Source: Nymphaea colorata
Taxonomy: Eukaryota > Streptophyta > Magnoliopsida > Nymphaeales > Nymphaeaceae
NCBI RefSeq assembly: GCF_008831285.2
Contig: NC_045142.1
Span: 7,106,713-7,170,712 of the forward strand
DNA length: 64,000 bases
Reading direction: 5' to 3'
Below the pieces are notes generated by a model that saw only the letters and a program-made list of their open reading frames with translations, was not told where the DNA came from and did no database searches. Both the position numbers and the translations under genes were made by a program. Positions 10,521 through 64,000 of this stretch are shown in pieces (the first letter of the stretch is position 1; every line of letters begins with the position of its first letter).

Positions 10521-11834
10521 CATAAATGACATTCACCAAAGTATAGTTGTGCATATAAATATAAAAACTTAATAGAAAGGCAGTGATGCCAATATTGTGG
10601 TGTTTATGATGGTGTGGATTATTCAGGAAACGGAGACAGCCATCTCTACCATTGACCTTTTTATTTAGACCTTGGATTTTAAGTATTATCCTGTTAGGCC
10701 TTATAATTTGTGCTCACAAGGATCGAACTAGAGCTATGAACTTGAGATTTGCTGCTTCTCATGCCTATGGCCCAATTGGCTATACTTATGCTCCTTGAGG
10801 CTCTTACACAACTTCATAGCTGAGATTGAATGGGTAATTGGAAATTAAACTGCCGATTGCATTACGGACCTTAACAAGAGAACATGTGTCATGCGTTTGA
10901 CATGATCGAGATACTCTTATTAGAAAACTGCCCTTATAAGGGCAAAATTGAAATCCAAAAAATGTCACCCCTCTAAAACTATGAAAGTACCCGTCTAGCA
11001 AAAAATGGGATAAATGTCTTGTCATGTTGGCGACGTAACGTCAAAAGCACTTTAATGACTTAATTAAAAGAAAAAATTGAAAGAGCCATGTTGTATGTCT
11101 TCAGTTCATGTATAAAAGGATGTGATATTAATATTGGTGACAAAAAATTATGGGCCTTAGGTTAAAGGAGTGGAATATGCCCAAAAATCTCATTGTTGAA
11201 AAGTATAGACACTTTCATAACAATAATGAATTAATAACATGGGGTAATAAAAATTAAGAACTTAATAGCAATACTATCTTCAAAATAATGTTTTAATGGA
11301 AATTCAGAAATCAAAGTTATGTATATTATGAATCTTCCAGTCTTAGATGAAGCTCTTAATCCCTTCCCTACCTCCCCACCCCGTCCCTTTATAAGGCCTT
11401 GAATTCTCTCTTACATCAAATTGAAAATGAGTCTATTCGGATCGAATCGATGATTCTACCCAATCTTAACAACATGGTAACAGATCATTTGCTTTCTTTC
11501 TCTCTCTGCTGCGAAATTCTTTCTATTTGACGTTCGAAACAATCATCTTTTTCGTAGTTTTGAGCTGTTTTTTGTTGTAGCAAGCTTCATATGATTTACA
11601 TCAAGAGCATGTTCGGAACGATTGTTTGGCCTTGTAATAGTTCCATTTGAAAAAATCTGATTATATATGAAACCTGTTAAGTGAATTGCATGCATATTCT
11701 ATAAGTTCCCTGGTTTGTTCTATTTCTGCTAGTTATGACTGACACCCACCAATTTTTAAACAAAATAAGATATTATGATGCAAGAAAGTTTTGAACTTTC
11801 TACTAATTCACTTTCAATTCTGACGGGATTCCAT
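10521..11834. other. Intergenic, no gene seen
   Basis: No supported open frame. The region 11340-11560 has a CCTTTATAAGGCCTTG (TATA-like, 11385-11400) followed by CT-rich sequence and AACATGGTAACAG. It looks superficially promoter-like, but no coding sequence follows. Confidence 0.35.
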
Positions 11835-11837
11835 TCA

Positions 11838-12200
11838 TAGATCAAAGCAACAATGGGAAAAATTTATCCTCCATTCTTTTCCACCATAATCATATATATT
11901 AGAAAAGTGATGTTTGAATTGTCCATCAATTAAACAAAGAACGCTTAGTCCAAACATCATTGCCCATGCAAACGTTGCACAAAAAACATAATGGACCATG
12001 AACAAATTAAATACTAGTTTGATACTATACAAACGTTTTAGACAAAATATCATTTCGTCCTTGTGTTTTGGACTCAAATAGTATCTTAGATATTGATACG
12101 CTAACCTGAAAGCCACTAATATTTTCCTCTTGTTTAAAAATGTGTGTGTGTGTAGTTGGTGTTGATCTCTCCGATGCCATATAGGGTTTTTTTCTCCTTT
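11838..12200 (-). repeat. Unclassified repeat family R, copy 1
   Basis: The right part (TCGTCCTTGTGTTTTGGACT... to GATCTCTCCGATGCC) is a close relative of 19502-19680. The reverse complement of the whole block aligns with 21330-21620: ATATCTAAGATNCTATTTG, then TTTTTTGTGCAANGTTTG, GGGCAATGANGTTTG and GGACAATTCAAACANCACTT. Three copies in about 10 kb mark a repeat. Terminal repeats and target duplications were not found. Confidence 0.55.
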
Positions 12201-12412
12201 TTCATCTTATTCTTAACACTAATATTTGATTTCCCTCAATCTTAGCTACATCTTTATTTTTTCTGTAAGATTGCGCTCAACAAAAAGCGAGAGATTTGAT
12301 TTATATCGTCCTAGCAAATTGTGTCTTCCGAGTTTATTTTTCTCTCAATTTGCTGGATGTTTAATGTTGAATGCAAGTTCAACAAAGGGAGATACATATG
12401 AGATTTAGTAAA

Positions 12413-14747
12413 AGTTGTGTGTGTGAGAGAGAGAACAGCTGCCCGGTGGGAAAGCGAGCAAGAAAGAAAGAAGAGAAGGAAAGCCTGGATGGTCCTCTCC
12501 ACCTTTTCCCCGTTAAAGCATTTCTTAGTAGGCAGTACTTAGCAGGTGCCGTCCCATAAGCAAGAAAAATTTTATAAATAATAAAGTCCTCACAATTAGC
12601 CCCTTGAATCACAGAATTTAGTCAGCTGGGCGCCCTCAAATCCGGCTGAGCGTTATGGCATTTGTTTTGATCTACTTGAGAATTGATGGTTTTTCTTTTC
12701 AAATTTTATAATGCGTTATTATTTTGTTTTTAAAAACAAAAAATAGTACACTACCCAAATTTTAAATTTATGAAACAATTGATTTTTTTTTTTCAACCTA
12801 TGGATTCAAAACCGTCAAATGATTTATCCAAATTTCCTTGTCAGGGTTGCTCAAAAAAAATAGTGGCCTTTATGCCATGGTGAAAGTTGTTCAACGGAAA
12901 GGGTGTTGGCCCAATAGATGGTGGAGGGGTTAATAGGCAACCAGCTTTGATTTATAGAGTGTCAACTTCTTGTGTCGCAAATGAGCGGCCAATACGCAAG
13001 TTGAATTGTGGCAGGGGCAAGACGTCGACGTAAGCCCTGTACCTTAAGAGATGAGGGGTTGGTTGGGAGTTTCGGTCTTTTTCAAACGGTGGTTCAAACC
13101 CAAGAAGCATCACCATCAAACATGCACCACCGGTATACTTGGCAGACAATCAAACAAAGACATGGGAATTTTGGAGCAGACAAAAATAATAAGAGGCCCG
13201 CGCAGGATCCAACCCATTTGCACCCCAGGGCATTATGAATGCACCAAAGGTGATATAACAAATCTGTAACCTCCATGTCACAGCATTCAGCATCAAGATG
13301 CAGCTGATTTGGTGAACTTTGTCCCATAACTTGCAGCGCCCGAGTAATCACCTGCAATAAAAAACAAACACGTTAATTCTAACTTCCACTTCATTTTAAA
13401 TAAGTTCTGCAAAACTTTGGTGATACATTCGCTTTCATTCATTTAGAAAGGCCAACAATGGCCTCTTTAGAGAGAGAGCGGATATGCGAGAATAAGTAGA
13501 TTTGACAGTCAGGCTCCAATCGCTCCCTCTTTCCCTTTCTTCTTCTTCTTCCTACATCCTCAACCCCCCTCTCCCTTCTTTTTTATATGCAAATCTCTCT
13601 CTCTCTCTCTCTCTCACTCTCTTTCATCCAGTTTGTTAATTATGATTATCCATGTTCAGATCTCTTATATTACCAAGGGTAGTTTTTGCAAAAAAAAAAA
13701 AAAAGAAAAGAAAAGGTGGTATGTTGGTAACATAGAAGATCTGAAACATGGATAATCATAATTAACAAACTGGATGAAAGAGAAAGAGCGAGAGATTTGC
13801 ATATAAAGAAGAAGCCAAGAAGGGAGAGGGGGGATGAGGATGTAGGAAGAAAGAGAAAGAGGGAGCGATTGGAGCCTGACTGTCAAATCTACTTATTCTT
13901 GCACATCCGCTTTCTCTCTAAAGAGGCCATTGTTGGTGAATGAGTGAGTTGTTTCCTACTAGAGGCCATTACATGGAAACAACTTTACTTTGAACTCACG
14001 TCAGAGATGCTCCCCCCAGCCTGGCCCTAAGCAGCCCCCACATGCTTTCTACGAAAGCATATACGGATGCTCTTTCGGCTGTCTCTTCTCTTGAAGACAT
14101 CTAATACCAAATGCCTCCTCCATCTTTCTAAATGAATGAAAGCGAGTGTATCACCAAAGTTTTGCAGAACTTATTTAAAATGAAGTGGAAGTTAGAATTA
14201 ATGTGTTTGATTTTTATTGCAGGTGATTTCTCCAGCACTGCAAGTTCTGGGAGGGACAAAGTTCACCATCCACACTCAAAGATTGTTATTTTATTGTTCA
14301 GCAATGACAAATGGTCGGACTCAAAATCAGAGGAAGAGGTTTTAAACTTGAATTCACGGTTTTCAAATGTTGAAGATTTCAAATCCAAGGCTACCAAACT
14401 ACGAGATTTGGATAATCACTTGACCGTTTTGAATCGGTAGGTTAAAAAAAATGCTTAATAAATTTTAAAAATTGTGTATTTTACTATTATTGTTTTTAAA
14501 AGTAAAAGAATAACTCATTATAATTTTTTTAAAAAAACCCCATAAAATCTCAAGTAGATTGAATCAAATTATTTTAAAAATTTTTCTGGTTTATGTGACA
14601 GCACCTTCTATGTACAGCCCACCAAGAAATGCTTTCACAGGGAAAAGGTGGGGAGGATCATCCTGTCTTTCCTTCGCTTCTTTCTTTCTCCCTCGCTTTC
14701 ACACCGGGCAGCTGTTCTCTCTCTCTCTCTCACACACACACACACTC
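12413..14747. repeat. Giant imperfect inverted repeat (about 2.3 kb)
   Basis: The outer left arm 12413-12890 (GAACAGCTGCCCGGTG, CTGGATGGTCCTC, CTTAGCAGGTGCCGTC, CTACTTGAGAATTGATGG, CGGATTCAAAACCGTC-like) is the reverse complement of 14356-14747. The middle left part 13290-13450 is the reverse complement of 14124-14285 (TTTTGCAGAACTTATTTAAA, AAGTGGAAGTTAGAATTAA). The inner arms 13451-13680 and 13712-13935 match around TCAGGCTCCAATCGCTCCCT and GTTTGTTAATTATGATTATC. The centre is an A-rich loop near 13689-13711. The right arm lacks the counterpart of 12890-13290 and has its own insert at 13940-14123. A linear third copy lies at 29464-30905. No protein is encoded. Confidence 0.85.
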
Positions 14748-14893
14748 AGAGAGCAACTAATTGTAGGCCTGACCTCTATTCTTGGCCTGGTTGTGGCACC
14801 TCTTGGCCTGTGCCAAGAGAGTTTTCTCCCCTTCATTGCCTCATTCTCAATCTCCCACCTCTTGCTGTGGCTTATATGCTTAAGTACTGTGAA

Positions 14894-14895
<2 letters not shown>

Positions 14896-14982
<87 letters not shown>
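14896..14982. repeat. Compound microsatellite (AT)n then (GA)n
   Basis: About 50 bases of AT followed by about 35 bases of GA, just outside the right arm of the giant inverted repeat. The same AT-then-GA arrangement occurs at 17486-17573. Confidence 0.9.
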
Positions 14983-14983
<1 letters not shown>

Positions 14984-17485
14984 ATTAGGGTTTCAGGGAA
15001 TTGAATTTGGGTGTATTAATTGATCCAATATTGTTTGAACGGGAACCATTAAAATCTCCTACATGTGTTAGACTACCTAATCATGTCTTAGGATCCTTAG
15101 GCATTTAGGGCACATGCCCTACCACCCATGCAACAAGCTGAAACAAATCAAACCTAAACAAGAGAATTCAAAAAAAAAATTAAGATGTAGGAAAAAAATT
15201 ATACCAAATAAGAAATAAAAAATCTTAAGCAAGCAAAAATAAATAAATCAAGGAAAGAAAAGAAAAAGAAGAAAGGAAAGAGAGAGAGGTACGGTATCTC
15301 CTAAAGTTTGTGAAGAAAACTTTGCCTAGAAAAAACCAGATCTAAGCCTTTAAAACTTAGCCTAAAACTGACCTAATGTGAACAAATTTTGGTTTCCAAC
15401 TCTAGCACAAGCTTTCAGCCTTACAATTTGATGCCTTGGTCTTCCCCATGTCCTCTCCTTTTAAAATTGTTGAGAGAAGAGAACTTTTTCTTCATAATAG
15501 GTATAAAACTTAATTTTGTATGGGAAGTTGTGCCACACACCAAATCAAGCCATTTCCTGAAATATTGACATTTTAAGAAGATTTTTGTTGTGCAACATTA
15601 TTTAATTGATAAAAAAGGATACCACCATGAATCCAATTCCTGAATTTGAAATCTAAATCTGATATTTGAATCCAAATTTGAATTGAATCGCCTAAGAACC
15701 TTGTCCATGCATGCAATATTTCTATCAATATGGTCCATTGAGTCCACATAAAATATTGAAAAATGTATAAAATAACAAAGATATTCATCTTGATCTTATT
15801 TTATGACTAAAAGGTGTGGTAGAGTTTGATGCATATCAACGTTCACATTAGTTTTTGAGGATCCCAATGTGATTTAGAACACAAAGTGGTTTGCCATCTG
15901 AGACTTACAATTATGCATTTAATTTTTTTGGGACAAATGCTATAATATATGTATCCATTATTGGTTACTCGCATTTATTTTGTACAGGTAAATTTAAGTA
16001 TAAGTTTGCATTTCTTTAGGTTCTTTTGAGTATATACTTCTTTCGTCATTTATATCATTGATGTAAGCTTCTTGAAAAATATACGAGCACCAAAATTCCA
16101 CTTTTACGGTTTAGAAAACACCTTATATGCTTATAACACGATTTGAAACAATGAGTTTACATATGCACACAAACTATCACTTTCTCTGCTCTTTTTCCTT
16201 AGATTTTTTGAGAAATTCACTGTTTGTTTGAATGATTGTAGGTCATATTTAAGTTATACCTATTTGCTAATACTAGTCCAATAATAAAGAGCAGTGGCAG
16301 GCAAAGTGTTGTAAACTCTTAAATATGGTTTTTTTTTTCTCTAAACAAAGTTTTGTATGGCCCAAGTCATGCTATTTATGTTGTTAGCATATCAACTTAA
16401 AATTGTATCATTTGCTCAATATTAACCAAATTAATGGTGTCCGTTTGGGAATTTTAGCATAAGAAGGTGGGAAAATGTCCATCCATGAGCAAATTGCAAC
16501 TCAGCAAAAAGCATGACTTGGTAATTGGACCAACTTAATGTGTGTATTTGGAGTTCGAAAACAATCAAATCTGCATTAAGATTTTGCTGCAACTTGGATA
16601 AATGATGAACAAAAATTTGAACCTTTTTTGTGTGGGCAATTTCGACTTCCAAGATAAACCATTTAAACACAGAAAAATGGAAGATGAAGAATCATTTCCT
16701 TTCCAACAAAGAAGCACCATGCTGCCTTACATAGTTGTCTGGAAACTCACTTTTCCTTTCTATAAATATTAGAGTGAGTGTTTAACGCCTGCATTTAAAC
16801 CCCGTTTAATCAAACCTAAATCCAAATGCTACTAAAAATGTTCAAGGGTATGAATGAATGACAACTTGAAGTGGTACTTTGGAGACAAATTGTTGTTTAA
16901 GGCATGCAGTTATTGTCAAAAAATGGTTTTGGCAAAAACTCAATTTTGTTAAAATAATATTTCCAAAAGAGACTGAATAGTAACAAACGGACAAGTAATT
17001 AAGCCAAATATATAGTTTTTTATTTTTTATAGTAGAGTTCAAATTATTCACCATTTCCTAGATTGACCAATACTTTCTTGTAGCTAGCTTTTAAGTTTAT
17101 GAAATATGCAAAATGTTTCTTGCATATGGTTTTAGTCAAATTTACATTTGGAATAAGGACTAAACACGAATGCAAGAAGTGGAAGAGCTAAAACACGTTA
17201 TTTCAATTTTAGCATGCTTGGCTTTAGGCTAAGAAGTTATATGTTGGGCCTAGAATATGCGAGTTGTTCGTGTTAGCCCAAAAAGTCCAAAATGCCTTCT
17301 CAATTTAAAAATGAGAAACTCATTTGTAAGGGCAAAATGGAATGGCGGGATGTTTATTTGTCAAAATGAATAAAAGATTCCTTTTTTATAATAATTAAAA
17401 TACCCCTTTATATTCAGCAACTTGGCAACCATTTTCTTTATGGTGCTACTCTCTTTTGTGATTCTGCTATCTATATGAATGTGCG
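14983..17485. other. Intergenic, AT-rich, no gene seen
   Basis: No coding signal. A short piece at 15630-15690 (CTGAATTTGAAATCTAAATC, TTTGAATCCAAATTTGAATT) resembles the interior of the GGATGTCAAT family. The rest shows no recognised repeat. Confidence 0.35.
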
Positions 17486-19497: not shown

Positions 19498-19690
19498 TAC
19501 TGTCCTCCACCAGCCATCGTCCTTGTGTTTTGGAATCAAATAGTATCTTAGATATTGAAATACTAACGTGCAGGCTACCAATGTTTTCCTCTTTTTTAAA
19601 AAAATATGTGAAAACATTTTCAAAAAATATGTGTGTAGTAGGTGATGATCTCTCTAATAACATTAGAGCGTTTTTTGCCATACAAAGGTG
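19498..19690 (-). repeat. Repeat family R, copy 2 (partial)
   Basis: TCGTCCTTGTGTTTTGGAAT through AGTATCTTAGATATTGA to GATGATCTCTCTAATAAC matches 12056-12190. Only the right part of the family is present. Confidence 0.55.
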
Positions 19691-21079: not shown

Positions 21080-21299
21080 CACCCATATCTCGACACAAAC
21101 TACAACCTAAAAGGCAAGGAGAATGGAAGGCCTTCATATTACTTTTTTGGGCAGTGAGTTGTTTAACACTGCCGCTCACTCACATGAAAGAAGGGAACAC
21201 TTTTGAGGAAGAACAAATAATACATCAAGTTAACATTCACCTATTCATTCGTGTTGAAAAAATCTTCTTATAGCATTTGATAGGTCATCACCTACTAGA

Positions 21300-21620
21300 T
21301 GCTAATAATTTTGAACAAAAAGAGAAAAAACTTTAGTAGCCTGGTGGTTAGCAAATATCTAAGATCCTATTTGATTGCAAAACGCAATGACGGAATAACA
21401 CTTTATGTAGAACATTTTTATAACAGCAAACTAGCCAGTACTTTACCCTTCGGACCATTATATTTTTTGTGCAATGTTTGATTCATATGGGCAATGACGT
21501 TTGCAGTAAAGAGTTCTTCATTTTATTGCTGGACAATTCAAACACCACTTTGCTTCCTAATAATATTATGAATACATGATTATGGAGGACAATTTTTTGG
21601 TCAGTTGCTTTGTTCTATAA
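21300..21620 (+). repeat. Repeat family R, copy 3
   Basis: Aligns with the reverse complement of 11838-12116: GCAAATATCTAAGATCCTAT, TATTTTTTGTGCAATGTTTG, GGACAATTCAAACACCACTT, GATTATGGAGGAC. The open frame inside (60 codons) corresponds to the shadow frame in copy 1 and is not evidence of a gene. Confidence 0.5.
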
Positions 21621-22324
21621 ATAGAGTCTTATCAAGATTGAAAGTTACCTAGTAGAAATTTTAAAATTTGTTTGCATCATAAAATCTTATTTTATATAAA
21701 AAATTGATGGGTCCCCCCAATCATGACCAGTTGAAATACAACATCCAATGCCTTTGAGTTCAGCCAGTTTCTTGTTGAATCACTTGAATTGGAGCTATGA
21801 ATCAACCAATTCAAGCTGAATCCTCTATTTTTCAGCTCATTTTCTGTCATGTTTTTTTTTGTATAAATTTTTATGGAACTATTACATATATCCGATTTTC
21901 AGGTGACCGGGGTTTCCCATCGCCTGGCAGAAAGCTGAAGCTTCCACCCAACTCCTTATTCTCCTAAGGTAAAGGGCTTGGATTTGGTGTCTCAGAGTGC
22001 CGCCCTTGCCGTGCTTTAACTTGCATGTCGGTGGCTTCTCTTTTGCAGCATAGAGGGTTGATGTCATAAATATTTGAAACAGAAACCAGCTGCCTACTGA
22101 CCCTTGCCCCAGCCGTTGCGCCAACTCCCTTGGGAATTACAAATGCCCTATTGAGAAAAATGGAAAAAGTTGTCTTTTCAATTAAGGAAGGAAGAAGTAT
22201 TTTTTGGAGAGGGACAAAGGAATAGAGAGGTAAAGATCCTTTGCCCATAAGGAAGACTGGAAGATTCATAAATTATGTTTTTTTTTCTGGTTTCCATTAA
22301 AATTTGTTAACATTGCATTGTTAC
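21621..22324. other. Intergenic, no gene seen
   Basis: No supported frame. The segment 22130-22240 reads faintly like a decayed LINE, but not enough to call. Confidence 0.3.
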
Positions 22325-28824: not shown

Positions 28825-29166
28825 AGTCTGTGGAGAAGAGAGGGGACTCAACTCTTGCTCCGGCGGTGGGATATTCCTCCACCTCACTCGAAAAAGACAC
28901 TAAGAATTGTTGTTCTTAAAGGGGTAGGTTATTGTGGCTGGTTGCATGATACATGCGCTAACATATTGACATTTTTTCATCTTATTCTCAACACTAATCT
29001 TTGATTTCTTTCCATTTCAACGACATTGTCTTTATGTTTTCTGCAATGAATATTTTAAGATTGAATGCTCAATGAAGAGTGAGAGATACTACAACTATTA
29101 TTATTGTGTTGTACATAAAAAAATACATTTTGATTCCATATTATCCTATAAAATGCTATAGTCACG

Positions 29167-29463: not shown

Positions 29464-30905
29464 GAGAGAACAGCTGCCCGTGTGAACGCGGGAAAGAAAG
29501 GCTGGATGGTCCTCCTCACCTTTTTCCTATTAAAGCATCTCCCAGTGGGCGGTACTTAGCAGGCGCTGTCATGTAAAGCAATAAAAATAAAATAATATAA
29601 ACTAAATGATAAAGTCCTCATTAGCCGCTTCAATCACAGAATTTACTCACCCGTCCTCACCTCAAATCTCGGTGATCGTTGGATCATTTGTTTCGATCTA
29701 CTTGAGATTTGATGGTTTTTCCTTTTCAAATTTTATAATGATTTATTATTTTACTTTTACAAGAAATAATTGCAAAATACACAATTTTTTAAAATTTATG
29801 AAGCAATCAAAATGTTTTTTTTTTCTTCAACCATCGGATTCAAAACGGTCAATGATTATCCAAATCTCCCAGTTAGCGTTGCCCTGAAGAAATGGTGGGG
29901 CTTAGCTTCAAGAAGCGACAAGCTAGGTCGTGTTTGGATCAATCGTCAGAGTAGCTAGGAACTTACTTCTAAGAAATCAAGCACATATCATGCATTTGAG
30001 GGAGTGTTTGGTAGCCTCTTATTTGAGATTTTAAAGGTTTGAAAACCACGAATTTAACATTAAAAATTTCCCCATCCGATATTAAATCCCACCCTTTTTT
30101 CAATGCAAAAAAATAAAATAACGATATTAAGTTTAAGTTAAGATGATGAACCATGAAACGGCTCCTAAGAGTCTCATGTGTCTTGATTCTACATTAGTTA
30201 TTGTGGCGCTCTTATAGGTGTCACACAAAATGTTCTGAAACATGAAGAGATCATATCATAAACAGGTCGGACGACTTAGACAGAGTCAGAGGGTGTTAGA
30301 GACATTATGCCCAGCCTTTCAAACAGTCCATAAGGCTATGTTGTTATCCCACAATTTCAAATCGGAGGATCAGATCTCTTGGGACTTAAAATCTCATAAA
30401 GGGGCAAAATCCTAGAAATAGACCGAGGATGGATGTGTTTGAAGAACAAGACATTCTTCACATCCAGGCAAGAATGTCAAAGAGGTGCCGCTCCCCTTGA
30501 AATTCACGAGTTATGTACTTTCAGGTATCAAGTTTAAGAACTGGAAAAGTCCGACTACTTTACCATGGTGAAGTTGTCCAAGGGAAAGAACGGTCGCCAT
30601 CAAACACGCCCCACCCGTGTAAGGCGTAGACAAACCCAATAAATGAATGGGGTTTGGGGTACATACAGAAAATCCGACCCATTTGCACCCCAGGGGCATT
30701 ATGGTCATTTCAAGAGACAATGAATGCACCAGGATGATATAACAAAACTGTAACTTTCATGTCACAGCATCATGATGATGCTGGTCTGGTGAACTTTGTC
30801 CCACAACTTGCAGTGCCCAAGAAATCATTTGCAATAAAAATCAAACACATATATTCTGACATCCACTTCATTTAAAATAAGTTCTGCAAAACTTTGGTGT
30901 ATGAA
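29464..30905 (+). repeat. Linear third copy of the giant inverted-repeat arm
   Basis: 29464-29880 parallels 12413-12860 (GAGAGAACAGCTGCCC, GGCTGGATGGTCCTC, GGTACTTAGCAGGCGCTGTC, TCAAATTTTATAATG). 30540-30905 parallels 12890-13425 (AACCCATTTGCACCCC-like, GTGAACTTTGTCCCACAACT, AAATAAGTTCTGCAAAACTT). It stops at CTTTGGTGTATGAAC, exactly where the inner hairpin begins in the other copy. The middle (about 29900-30530) is unrelated to 12860-12890 and may be an insertion. Confidence 0.75.
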
Positions 30906-32073: not shown

Positions 32074-35000
32074 ATGGCTGCATTTCGTCTCCTCTTCCTT
32101 CTTCTTCTCTCGTTTGTCTTCGCTTCCTTCACTACAGATGCTCAGTCTCCTGGTACCTTTCTTCCTTTCTTTCCTTTGCTTCTGCTTTTTGCTTTGTTTT
32201 TCTGGGTTCCTGCTTCCTTACTGCTTTTTCCTTTTACTATGACACCAATATTTGTCAAGATGAAATTTCACATGAATTTTATGCTGTAGACTATGAAATG
32301 AGGCAGAGTCTTTCGATTTGTGCTAGTGATGCATGCAACAGCTTGAACTTCTTTGGTTCTTGGATTTTTCCTTTTTCTTTTCCGGTTCGCTTGCCACAGA
32401 ATAACATGTAACCGAGTATTGTGTACTAAAATTTGATGTATCCAGTAAGCAACGCAGAACACGTGTTTCAGTTGTAAAGAGTTTTTGCAGTTGGTGGTGA
32501 ATTCGAGTCATGGTCCCTTATAAATAAGAGAAACCCCAAAAGAATACTCACCATTTTCCAATGTTGAAGCTTTCAATGCTGAATATGATGGACAATGAAA
32601 AAGTTTAGTGTAAAATCTGGGGTATGAAACATGTACCCAGTGCTCAAGTTAAAGTGGCACCGTGGAAATCAAAACTTCTGAAGTTGACCTTTTAGCAGTT
32701 AGCACCTGTTGAGTGCAAAAGCTTGTTTACAGAAAAGTTGTTCAAATATTCTATTTTGTATAGATCAAATTGATGTTCTCGCTTGAGGGCCTTGCAAAAA
32801 ATTTAGGGGACAGACTTGCTTAAACTTGGCTAGCTGTCCCAGAGTGCACCTCTAGTGGGCATAGCATGCTGCGTTTATCTTGGTCAGAATCTTGTGTTTG
32901 TTTCCCAAGACCTGCTTCATGCAAACGAGTTGTAGAGAATTCAGAGACAAAATGCAACCCGTCTTGGTTCCTGAAAGTGCTTTCTGAGGAGCTTCAAAGA
33001 GTCGTAATTTCCATATCTGTTTCAGGACCTCATCTTCTGCATACGAAATGCATTGTGAAAATATTTTTTCATCACAATGTCATTATCCTGTAGCTACTGT
33101 AGCTTATAGAATACTGAGGAAATGAATGTCTTTGTTGCAAGATGTAGATCATGCTTAAAATGCTTTGCGATACATCATTTGCTTATTTAATTTCATTTGG
33201 TTTTTCTATTTTCACTATCATTTTTATTCTGTTTTTAACATGTTGTTCGATTGATCTGGGACAGGCTTTATAAGCATAGATTGTGGTGGAACAGAAAAAT
33301 ATACTGATGAAATTGGGCTTGAGTGGATTCCAGATAATAACTTTAGTTATGGTGAAATAGCAAATATTTCTGTGGCAGGTGAGAGCCGGAAGCAGTATCA
33401 GACACTCAGACATTTCCCTCCAGATGATAGAAAGTATTGTTATATATTAAGTGTTAAATCTAGAATTCGGTATCTTGTAAGAGCGACTTTTTTGTATGGG
33501 CTTTTCGACAGTAGTAGTGTCTTTCCAAAGTTTGACATCTCAATTGGGCCAACTCACTGGTCAACAGTTGTCATCTCTGATGCCAACACTACAGAAATCC
33601 GGGAAGCAATCTTGTTGGCCAATTCAGATTCAATTAGTGTTTGCCTATCTAATGCTTCTACTGGAGTTCCATTCATCTCTACGCTAGAGCTTCGGCAGTT
33701 TAATGATTCAATGTACTATACCAACTTTGAAACTCAGTATTTTCTTAGTGTTTCAGCAAGAATTAATTTTGGGACTGATGACACAACACCTGTCAGGTAA
33801 ACTTAATTTTCAGTGGCTATTTTTTGAAGGGTTCATTTTTCATTCCTCATGCGTTTGCCTCTTAAGAGTGGTTTGTTTAATGATTTAATCTTTCCCTGCA
33901 AAACTACTTTTGACTCAGATGGTTACATGTTCATTGTCCTATAGCTCAACAATAAATATTGAACATTAATGTGTGTCATATGGTTCTACCAGTTGTGTGA
34001 TAAGAACATATGTTAATTTGATTTTTTGCCTTATAAGTGATAGTTGAGAAATTTTTGTACATCTTTTTGTGATCTTCTAGAATTTTGCTGTTCCACATTA
34101 GCCTGTTTTATGCTTGGAACTTTCTGTACCTATAGATAGCATCATTGTCACAAAAAACGTGTACGGGTGTTATATGACAAAAAATTTCTCGGGTATAATA
34201 CGGCAAAGTTGTATATCTCGAAAATAAAATGGGCAAATCTCTGCAAATTTTTAAAAAATTTAAAACATTTATTAAATCCTGAAAATTATAAAAATAAAAA
34301 ATCATAAAAATACGAAAAAAATGAAAAAAAACACGTATCATATGCGTTTTTTCATGTTTTTTATTTTCTGGCGTTTTTTTTCAAAGATGCGTTTTTTTCA
34401 CGTTTCATATGGCTGACTCTGTTTTGGCATATTATACACTATTTTTTTCAATAGGACACGTTTTCTGTGACAGTGGATACCATATAGCAGGTGTAGGTCA
34501 TTCATTGCTACTTTTTTTCTTTAGCGGACATCATCAAGCTTCCAAGCTTTTTTACACCTGCCTGCTCTTACCAGTGTCTGTTATATTAGTTGGCACCATT
34601 GCAATTGCAGATGTAGGTAGTTCAAAACCACTCTAATTTTCCAAATCATGCCATAGTTGGACTACCACTTAAATATATAGCTTATGACACTCCATTTTTT
34701 TGAATGCTATGTCGGTGGGCTGGTGGCTTGGTACCAATTAACATAAATTTAGATGGGTTCATGGATCTTGAGCAACTAATCTGGTAGGACAACTCGAAAA
34801 CTACAGTTTTCAAGTTATTAGGTGCACAAAAAATTTGGCAGATTTGACTTAATCCAATAAAAATGTGGTGGATAAAGACAAGATATTGTACCAAGTCAAT
34901 CACCTGGTAAGGTTTACTGCTATAGCTTCATTGGCATGTGAACAGCAAAAAAGATTATGTTATAAGTATGTATTGAAATATAGGAATAGGTTCGCCCCTT

Positions 35001-61320: not shown

Positions 61321-62028
61321 GCATGTGGGTGTTCTAATTGTGGTTTAAGAATGGTACAGGCCATTTTAAGGCCGATTCAGTAGTTCTTGACCCTCTTAAG
61401 CACGATTATGATACTGGTTTATAAATTTTGGATACTTTTGGGCCCCTTTTATTGGATCATTTTGTTTTGGATTCAATGTAGGGCAAATTTGTATGTAATT
61501 TTAATTCATGTATAATGTTTTGCATGTTTTAAATTTGTGGGTATACTTTAGATGAATGTTTGGAATGTGAATTTGAACTTTGGCCATGTCTGTTGTTTCA
61601 AATGAGTAAGTTTGTATTTTATGTCGCGAAAGTGACCTCTGTTGTACGAATTTGCCTGTTTTGAACATTAGATGATAGTATACTTGATCCATGCGGGCAA
61701 TGATCAACCCAAAGGAGGATTGTTGTTTGGTCAGGTTTAAGTATACAAGGCAATGAATATGTGATAATTTTTCAGGTTTCCATGTAAATAGCGAGTCAAT
61801 CCAAAGATAGGCTCGTTGTTTGACAGAGTTAATTATCTATATTCATTGTTGACCAAGAATACCACTTGCAGTTAGTATTTCAATCCAAAGATTGGATATT
61901 AACGTTGCACCAGTACCTTGTGATGGGATTTAGGCCATTGTATTTAAATTCAGTTATATTTGTTAGTACATGTTTTGATTGTGAGCATGTTTGGTATTTT
62001 TGTTCTTTGTACAGTGAGTTCTGCTTCC
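61321..62028 (+). other. Rest of the copia leader, non-coding
   Basis: AT-rich sequence between the array and gag. A diverged pair of CAATCCAAAGAT motifs lies at 61797 and 61881. TTCTTTGTACAG just before gag (62003-62014) resembles a splice acceptor. Confidence 0.4.
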
Positions 62029-64000
62029 ATGATATCTGCAAATTTGAGTACTGTTCCTGAGTTAAATGGTTCAAATTTTAAGGACTGGAAAGAAACTGTT
62101 ATGATTGTTCTGGGTTGTATGGATCTAGACCTTGCATTTAGGGAGTTATGCCCACCTCATCCAACAGATCAAAGTTCTCATGAGGATAAGCGGTACTTTG
62201 AACGGTGGGAACGCTCAAACCGCATGTGTCTAATGATCATGAAGAGATCAATCCCAGAAAATTTTAGGGGCTCTATTACTGAAAAGGCTAGTGCCAAGGC
62301 GTTCATTGAAGAGATTAAAAAAAGTTTTGCTAAAAATGAAAAGGCTGAAACAAACACTCTTTTGAGTAAACTTGTGACGCTGAAGTATAAAAGTAAAGGG
62401 AACATACGGGAGCACATTATGAAAATGTCTCATCTTGCTTCAAAATTATAGGCGCTAGGTCTGAGGTTACCCGAAGACTTTATAGTGCATATGGTTCTTC
62501 TTTCTCTTCCACCACAGTTTGGACAGTTTAAAGTTAGTTATAACTGTCAGAAGGAGAAATGGACTCTTAATGAGCTCATTTCGCACTGTGTGGAAGAAGA
62601 GGAGAGATTGAAGCATGATAGGATAGAAAGTGCTCACTTGGCTACTACGCCTAAAAGTAAGAAAAGAAAGACTGTTAAAGAAGTTGCAGTTGACCAATCA
62701 TCTGTTAAGAAACAAAAGAAGCATAAGGAATGCCTATCAGGCTGCTTCTTTTGCAAGGTGAAGGTCATATGAAGGAGGATTGTACTGAGTATCACGCATG
62801 GCGTGAAATGAAGGGTACATTTCTCACTTTGGTTTGTTCTGAGGTTAATTTAACTTCAGTACCCAGAAACACTTGGTGGGTAGATTCAGGTGCTACTACT
62901 TACATAAGTGTCTCTATGCAAGGCTGCATCAATTGTCGAACGCCAATTGATGCTGAAAGATTCATCTATGAGGGTGATGACATGAAGGCGAATGTTGAAG
63001 CCATAGCAGATTTTCAGTTATTGTTAAAGACTGGTTGCTATTTGAATTTGACAGAAACTTATGTGGTACCATCTCTTATATGGAATTTGGTTTCTTATTT
63101 CCTCATTGGACAAATTCGGTTATTATTGTTCATTTGGAGGAAGTAAATTTAAGTTGTTTCTGTACTCAAATTTGATTGTCACTGGTTGTTTGTCTAGTAG
63201 CGATAACCTTTATTTGCTTGATACGGTTGCTTCATATAATGAAACCTTGCATGTTACGTTTAGTGGTACTAAAAGAAATTAGCCAAAGAGAATTCTGTTA
63301 TGTTATGGCATTGGCGCTTAGGACATTTCTCTGAAAAGAGAATATAAAGGCTTATGTCAAAAGGAATTCTTGAGTCTCTTGATTTTGCAGACTTTAATGT
63401 TTGCATTGAATGCATAAAAGAAAAATGAACAAACATTAAGGGGTTACAAGTTTTTTAATCCATTCAGTAAGTCTTTCTTTGAAAGGGAAACACCCATTTC
63501 TTTGAGGATATTGAGTTTGGGAGGTGATCAGGTTATGAACATTGCCTTTTGAAGAGGGACCTGAGTCCACTCTATTCAGAAGAAGGCAATGATGGTGATC
63601 TCTATACTGAAGAACAAACTCAACTAGCTCAAGAAAATTAAGTAGAGGTGTCACTAAGGAAATCCATATATGGACTAAAGCAAGTTTTCCAGTCATTACA
63701 AACTTCATCAAGTTATAGTTTCATTTGGTTTCGAAATTAATATGGTTGATGAATGTGTATACCAAAAGTTCAGTGAGGGCAAATTTATCTTTCTGGTTTT
63801 ATATGTCGATGATATATTGTTGGCAAGTAATGATGTGGGCATATTGCATGAAACTAAGAAATTTTTGTCATCAAAGTTTGACATGAAGGATTTTGGTTGT
63901 GCATCTTTTGTATTAGGAATCCAAATATTTCGAGATCATTCTCGGAGTATTCTTGGATTATCACAAAAGACCTACATTGATAAGGTGCTTCAGCGATATG
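62029..64000 (+). pseudogene. Ty1/copia gag-pol of the second element, decayed and internally deleted
   Basis: Gag starts at ATG 62029 (LNGSNFKDWKE, typical). An in-frame TAG at 62449-62451 is followed by more gag in the same frame to about 62750. A CCHC knuckle is split by a one-base frame change at about 62770. Protease WVDSGAT (62880s), pre-integrase WHWRLGHF (63306), then a jump at about 63430 past the integrase core to its C-terminal side. A second jump at about 63650 leads into RT at IYGLKQ. RT then reads open to the window edge with YVDDILLASND (63807-63839). The protein cannot be made as it stands. Confidence 0.85.

Follow-up and report, generated by a model that had tools for sequence, protein, structure and literature searches.

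The stretch of Nymphaea colorata DNA analysed here (the window: 64,000 nucleotides, C5:7106713-7170712) contains at positions 12413 to 14740 a nested palindrome, IR1, which by the features tested is not a transposon and was very probably built stepwise by inverted (fold-back) duplication beside a receptor-kinase-like gene. Alignments show that an existing palindrome was tandemly duplicated at a spacing of about 19 kb, giving IR1 and a sister, IR0 (C5:7100133-7102166), and that IR1 now carries an inverted duplication of a segment of about 290 bp (C10:1171468-1171756) located upstream of an ELF4-LIKE gene. The genome searched comprised 407.8 Mb in 783 contigs. C4, C5, C8 and C10 denote its chromosomes, while C2 denotes a locus, the linear relative of the palindrome arms at 29464-30899. 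Negative coordinates continue the window numbering upstream.

Structure and folding of the palindrome

The inverted repeat proposed in the original prediction is present. Its best inverted matches scored 406, 207, 194 and 130 bits, compared with at most 35.6 bits in five first-order Markov random sequences. The highest score was obtained for 13452-13936, which matches itself in inverted orientation, followed by inner block 1 (13310-13450 pairing with 14124-14268, 92%), outer block 1 (12416-12582 with 14568-14734, 86%) and outer block 2 (12660-12836 with 14403-14569, 77%). The parts of IR1 and its linear relative are:

12413..12582, + strand: outer block 1, left arm of the older palindrome; 86% complementary to 14568-14734; outer-arm matches only in the C5 cluster
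12660..12864, + strand: outer block 2, left arm; pairs with 14394-14569; aligned with IR0 and C2
12898..13100, + strand: repeat copy in the left arm only; relative at 21911-22132 (-), nhmmer E 4.8e-15
13310..13450, + strand: inner block 1, left arm of the older palindrome; 92% to 14124-14268
13452..13676, + strand: younger palindrome, left arm; copy of C10:1171481-1171709 (+), 89%; antisense to the ELF4-LIKE gene
13674..13949, - strand: younger palindrome, loop and right arm; copy of C10:1171756-1171468 (-), 82% with gaps; gene-sense on the + strand
13995..14106, - strand: middle layer, in IR1 in the right arm only; related to C4:27300168-27300270, 81%
14124..14268, - strand: inner block 1, right arm; pairs with 13310-13450
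14268..14402, no strand assigned: dispersed repeat in the right arm, labelled MITE-like (resembling miniature inverted-repeat transposable elements) as a working name; 11 of 18 genome matches of 13937-14420, on 9 contigs
14394..14569, - strand: outer block 2, right arm; pairs with 12660..12864
14568..14740, - strand: outer block 1, right arm; pairs with 12413..12582
29464..30899, + strand: C2, linear relative of the older arm; same orientation as the left arm

The prediction of three nested pairs around one centre near 13700 held for the pairing and failed for the centre, as there are two. Position 13700 is the centre of the younger palindrome (13452-13949), which is lodged inside the older one, and comparison with IR0 places the older palindrome's own centre near 13990. 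A single inverted duplication in situ with one centre is ruled out by this comparison together with the C10 matches of the younger layer. That the right arm had lost one segment and gained another proved to be an incomplete description. The right arm holds the dispersed repeat 14268-14402, to which a piece at 30006-30128 is related, but the left arm also lacks a segment, that at 13985-14123, of which both arms of IR0 hold a copy, the one on the left being the longer. Moreover, the left arm of IR1 holds the repeat copy of about 200 bp at 12898-13100, which sits inside the left-arm stretch collinear with IR0 (11791-13450).

The capacity to form a long hairpin was borne out by folding. For the inner 961 nt a value of -596 kcal/mol was obtained, compared with a mean of -238 for 20 shuffles (z -42.7). 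The whole 2.36 kb folded at -1114 kcal/mol (-0.47 per nt), 659 of the 876 pairs crossing the centre, and the longest unbroken helix, G-U pairs counted, measured 86 bp, with further helices of 49, 39 and 33 bp. As controls for the whole stretch, the linear relative C2 gave -0.25 per nt and five control windows gave -0.20 to -0.39, the strongest-folding of which covered GC-rich tandem arrays near 26.4-27.2 kb. A very long stem-loop is likewise a feature of endogenous inverted-repeat loci of the IR71 and IR2039 type that give rise to small interfering RNAs (siRNAs).

A mirrored segment from upstream of an ELF4-LIKE gene

The insert of 498 bp (13452-13949) is itself a palindrome and was not found in IR0. 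Both of its arms match one linear place on C10 in opposite orientation, including a perfect run of 64 nt at 13470-13533. A genome search with 13451-13937, in which 40 of 58 candidates were scored, gave 49 matches: two were the insert itself, two the C10 place, and the other 45 were short matches within the CT-rich part 13563-13641. On the minus strand of C10, an open reading frame (ORF) of 114 aa with its start codon at 1170459 contains an Elf4 domain (E 6.2e-41), one of five Elf4 matches over the cut-off in the genome. ELF4-LIKE genes are a circadian-clock family. The first exon of the C10 gene resembles a non-coding leader, with its end at the donor GAG/GTACGG (GAG begins at 1171285); some 30 nt separate a predicted acceptor from the ATG, and position 1171621 has a TATA-like box. 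The captured segment is thus predicted to span the promoter and leader of this gene.

The layout is similar in an ELF4-LIKE paralogue on C8, the upstream region of which aligns with C10:1171366-1171550 at 70% (E 1e-15). The 22-nt block GAATAAGTAGATTTGACAGTCA is identical at C10:1171529-1171550 and C8:18956084-18956105, possibly as a conserved element of regulation or of the leader. Since the C8 paralogue keeps part of the segment, including GAATAAGTAGATTTGACAGTCA, upstream of its coding region, we conclude that the segment is native to ELF4-LIKE genes and that the palindrome is the copy. With two mismatches allowed, a 21-nt core of the younger stem was listed at four places in the genome, all without mismatch, namely both IR1 arms, C8 and C10; the reversed control pattern gave two places. 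A 21-nt exact pattern did not occur in viral contigs, and blastn found nothing in plasmids, two collections that are not expected to hold plants.

The left arm (L), the right arm (R) and the C10 segment are about equally distant from each other (L-R 12/199, L-C10 14/218, R-C10 17/198), a pattern to be expected of capture and mirroring in a single event. That the insert is younger than the tandem duplication is suggested mainly by the lack of a counterpart in IR0. The filtered transition:transversion ratios of this layer were 6:1, 6:1 and 7:2, and from only 7 to 9 differences no reading was drawn. The only direct repeat at the insert, the 6-mer AGGCCA at 13449 and 13963, was counted as chance.

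Across the window, no Rfam family reached its gathering score. The matches of MIR5048 at 13558-13839 (50.4 bits, E 2.2e-9, cut-off 160) and of MIR530 over the hairpin (27.4 bits, cut-off 85) were read as long-stem artefacts, because the hairpin sequence is explained by the C10 copy. A likeness by eye to motifs of miR172 and miR399 was dropped; neither was among the 10 Rfam matches over the hairpin.

The older palindrome and its tandem duplication

For the outer arm at least seven genome matches were found, and for the inner block (13200-13450) at least five, all at the same three loci within about 37.5 kb on C5. One of these is IR0, located 19 kb upstream of IR1. The two palindromes are collinear, flanks included, with 82.5% over 11791-13450, 80% over 14394-15936 and 92% over 15939-16648, the collinearity being followed up to 16648, where a 2,500-N run begins. 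It is this collinearity, extending into the flanks, from which we concluded that both arose by tandem duplication of an existing palindrome. The 2,500-N run (C5:7104213-7106712, -2499 to 0) abuts the left edge of the window, and the duplication boundary is unreadable on that side.

Alignment of the four arms with C2 yielded 27 informative sites, all in the outer blocks, of which 26 grouped left with left and right with right, one grouped the arms within a palindrome and none showed another pattern. It follows that the divergence of the arms is older than the tandem duplication and that the outer blocks have not been homogenised since. In IR1 the arms differ at 50/320 positions (15.6%) in the outer blocks and at 20/341 (5.9%, younger layer included) in the inner part (p 4e-5). 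Inner block 13310-13450, whose counterparts in IR0 are -5709 to -5569 and -5261 to -5121, disclosed no site of the left-with-left and right-with-right type in about 140 columns, and the orthologous arms differ there at 10/140 and 4/141 positions. Apparently, the inner arms were identical at the time of the tandem duplication, when the outer arms had already diverged. This identity could be accounted for by gene conversion between the arms close to the centre, or by the inner part having arisen later.

Near its centre, IR0 contains a segment that matches one linear place, C4:27300168-27300337, with 170 bp of the left arm (80.6%) and 72 bp of the right arm (87.5%). This place precedes an open frame with a DUF761 domain (E 1.5e-14) by about 0.6-0.8 kb. 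Both arms of the C4-related layer are present in IR0, while IR1 has the right arm only (13995-14106); its left arm carries 13452-13949 where IR0 has the rest of the layer. As these alignments show, the older palindrome consists of local DNA and a mirrored C4-related segment and predates the tandem duplication.

The third locus, C2, precedes a gene with a malectin-like domain, represented by the ORF 33255-33800 (Malectin_like, E 2.1e-46). Reading by eye puts the probable start codon of this gene near 32074, which is 1.2-2.6 kb downstream of C2. An inverted partner of C2 was not found in the 64-kb window. In the outer blocks the left arm, the right arm and C2 are nearly equidistant (L-R 15.1%, L-C2 16.8%, R-C2 15.8%), which does not support the left and right arms being the closest pair with C2 as outgroup. 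A likeness of C2 to the younger arms beyond 30899 (nhmmer to 30999 and 30937; alignment score p 0.012-0.016) consisted mostly of pyrimidine runs and was dropped, given the C10 source. Low-complexity words excluded, C2 has perfect 24-mers in common with IR1 at two positions and with IR0 at 13. A four-copy repeat (11714-12297, 19515-19677, 21187-21746 and 28869-29089) precedes the palindrome and C2 alike, at short distance and with equal orientation, which hints that the two have more than the arm in common.

Formation of the palindrome and alternative explanations

A mechanism by which the younger layer could have formed begins with a break associated with the palindrome, whose repair by templated insertion would have captured the C10 segment. 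Folding back, the new strand would next have paired with itself at a 3-nt microhomology and served as its own template. Such a fold-back would account for the fact that the source span of the left arm (1171481-1171709) lies wholly within that of the right (1171468-1171756). The two copies join at a common CAA (13674-13676), and about 50 unpaired nt (13677-13729) lie between the arms. In yeast, foldback inversions form via single-strand hairpins, the large-loop class having a median loop of 36 nt (PMC7467729). They resemble the structure described here in being inverted duplications with a short unpaired centre, 36 nt being of the same order as about 50 nt. The yeast events are, however, gross chromosomal rearrangements (PMC7467729), whereas the mirrored DNA in IR1 is an interstitial insert from another chromosome.

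Several observations weigh against parts of this reconstruction or narrow it. The insert may have been lost from IR0 instead of gained in IR1. The unfiltered distances to C10, 14/218 (6.4%) for the left arm and 17/198 (8.6%) for the right, resemble those of the duplication itself (113/1515 and 186/2285). After filtering, the values of 7/205 and 9/150 compare with 7.5-8% for the duplication; only that of the left arm is clearly lower, and they agree weakly with a younger age. The relation between C4 and C5 is a likeness without direction as to source and copy, the transcription start on C10 is predicted from the TATA-like box and splice motifs, and the copy counts from the DNA search are lower bounds. 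Between IR0 and IR1, arms and flanks diverged alike (113/1515 and 186/2285, p 0.46), and there was no excess of transitions in the arms (58 transitions to 55 transversions, compared with 83 to 103 in the flanks; p 0.28). A methylation footprint, sought as a transition excess in the older arms relative to the flanks, was thus not found. Differences between the IR1 arms compatible with wobble pairing numbered 16 for a + transcript and 18 for a - transcript (p 0.86), i.e. without bias. With no wobble bias and arms evolving like their flanks, nothing shows selection for the hairpin.

One alternative is that IR1 is a functional trans-silencing locus, whose hairpin siRNAs would methylate or cleave the ELF4-LIKE gene on C10 and perhaps, via the common 21-22-nt block, its C8 paralogue. 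The inner stem contains 39 fully paired 24-mers, and 28 of these occur perfectly in an 18-kb region of C10, as do 34 of 45 fully paired 22-mers, and the 21-nt core was listed just at the two arms and upstream of the two ELF4-LIKE genes. Like Smi, the locus resembles the promoter of another gene, the C10 promoter being a predicted one. There are also natural precedents in PAI1-PAI4 and Smi/SP11 (PMC3431836) and in VIM4-VIM2 (PMC13213937). Nevertheless, the arm differences lack a wobble bias, the older arms look neutral, and a 4-kb region of C8 contains none of the 24-mers and only one of the 45 22-mers. We therefore regard a silencing function as doubtful. The steps it would involve are transcription through both arms, giving an RNA that forms a long hairpin, and cleavage by Dicer-like enzymes into 21-24-nt siRNAs perfectly matching the ELF4-LIKE promoter and leader, as for PAI1-PAI4 or Smi; that this siRNA step is active appears questionable to a similar degree. 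Somewhat less credible still is the wider proposal that the palindrome acts as a trap, breaks near its centre being repaired by gene-upstream DNA copied from elsewhere and mirrored by fold-back synthesis, so that silencing hairpins would arise repeatedly, the newest being an active trans-silencer of ELF4-LIKE.

The near-equidistance of the left, right and linear copies in the outer blocks favours a reading in which two opposite-facing copies of a local repeat came to lie head to head by separate insertions. But mirroring extends to the inner arms and to both the C4-related and the C10 layer, each of these two layers matching one linear place on another chromosome, which makes separate insertions distinctly unlikely. 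A foldback element, a Mutator-like element (MULE) or another transposon with long terminal inverted repeats could be suspected from the long inverted arms, from the outer boundary common to the left arm, the right arm and the linear relative, and from the captured gene fragments, as in Pack-type elements. In the Tm1 family the flanking target-site duplication is 9 bp (PMC3169594). At the outer ends of IR1 a target-site duplication of 6-12 nt was not found: comparison of 12360-12425 with 14722-14790 revealed no direct repeats of 6-7 nt exact or of 8-12 nt with at most one mismatch. For C2, exact comparison gave four pairs of 6-mers, and comparison with one mismatch two pairs of 8-mers, but no pair lay at matching element ends. 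Furthermore, by lower-bound counts the outer and inner arms were found only within about 37.5 kb of 408 Mb, without dispersal; one copy is linear, and the sister is a tandem duplicate with common flanks. A transposon is hence a very improbable explanation. Long palindromes are also a known form of assembly or sequencing artefact, arising from fold-back reads with a missed adapter. Arms that differ by 5.9% (inner) to 15.6% (outer) and the existence of a tandem-duplicated sister make the chance of an artefact negligible.

These results support the earlier view that IR1 fits no nameable transposon family, with regard to both the missing target-site duplication and the confinement of the arms to one stretch of about 37.5 kb. 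Its statement that a terminal duplication is absent stands for 6-12 nt, the range searched, and its statement on coding for the ORFs sampled: seven ORFs (one trimmed), taken from the 28 that span 45 aa or more from stop to stop, gave no Pfam match at E 1. It had also been proposed that, if all other copies were linear, IR1 would be a one-off inverted duplication of an ordinary repeat. The relatives proved to be mixed, C2 being linear, IR0 palindromic and the youngest arms derived from a linear gene-upstream segment on C10; IR1 is therefore not such a one-off duplication.

Other features of the window

ORFs with malectin-like domains lie at 33.3-33.8 and 35.2-35.8 kb, and kinase matches below the Pfam cut-off were obtained for ORFs at 41.2-41.8 and 52.1-52.5 kb. 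DNA like that at 43.8-46.9 kb recurs at -17 to -9 kb. We infer that the neighbourhood is a receptor-kinase gene cluster. A second family with inverted ends has two copies of about 0.9 and 2.6 kb (1690-1829/2453-2583 and 26217-26392/28616-28816) and a further match at C10:1180450-1180533; it looks like an ordinary dispersed terminal-inverted-repeat element. A Copia-type gag fragment is located at 61948-62451 (Retrotran_gag_2, E 4e-8).

Relation to known systems and implications

Plant inverted-repeat hairpins are described as giving 21-, 22- and 24-nt siRNAs without RNA-dependent RNA polymerase (PMC4687873). Silencing in trans is documented for the natural inverted repeat PAI1-PAI4 and for the promoter-like small-RNA locus Smi (PMC3431836) as well as for the natural inverted repeat VIM4-VIM2 (PMC13213937), and precursors of S-locus small RNAs have been reported to act outside the canonical silencing pathways (PMC13128112).

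PAI1-PAI4 of Arabidopsis thaliana Ws is similar to IR1 in that an inverted duplication stands apart from unlinked single copies with common sequence. It mirrors genes tail to tail and its trans methylation has been shown (PMC3431836), whereas IR1 mirrors an upstream and leader segment within an older palindrome and is known from its sequence. In Arabidopsis Cvi-0, VIM4-VIM2 forms a head-to-head inverted repeat over the 5' parts of genes, as is likewise the case here; it needs read-through transcription and its siRNAs act in cis and in trans, the same dependence being proposed for IR1. The VIM arms, however, belong to neighbouring genes and are 100% identical over the first exon and first intron (PMC13213937), while the arms of IR1 are 6% apart and derive from a gene of a different chromosome, the coding part of which they lack. 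The SP11 methylation inducer of Brassica (SMI/Smi) is again a locus resembling the promoter of another gene, and its 24-nt RNAs methylate the SP11 promoter in trans. Like its target, SMI lies in the S locus, and it has been tested (PMC3431836); in the case of IR1, the copy is on C5, its source is on C10, and the two were compared as sequences.

Inverted duplication of the target gene is one main model for the birth of microRNA (miRNA) genes (MIRNA genes; Allen et al., as described in PMC3237417). IR1 agrees with this model in having arms with extended similarity, in opposite orientation, to one gene, a feature of proto-MIRNA genes. It differs in that its arms copy a predicted promoter and leader, and a mature miRNA is not known.

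An inverted repeat derived from ELF4 was not seen among the papers listed by the literature searches, only one of which was aimed at it. A gene-derived inverted repeat with silencing potential is a known kind of locus; IR1 varies from it in the nested build from mirrored gene-upstream DNA of other chromosomes.

IR1 bears on the birth of hairpin small-RNA genes in that the steps can be read from it: a local palindrome, its tandem duplication with a sister that lacks the last insert, and a mirrored segment with a linear source on C10. It is possible that the centre of a palindrome acquires mirrored copies of DNA from upstream of genes; first the C4-related layer, provided that C4 is the source, and then the C10 layer look like this. 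Any siRNAs from the palindrome might also target C2, given the common 24-mers and its place upstream of the malectin-like gene. If RNA is made from IR1, one named target, the ELF4-LIKE gene, is predicted, and the sister palindrome would serve as a natural control.

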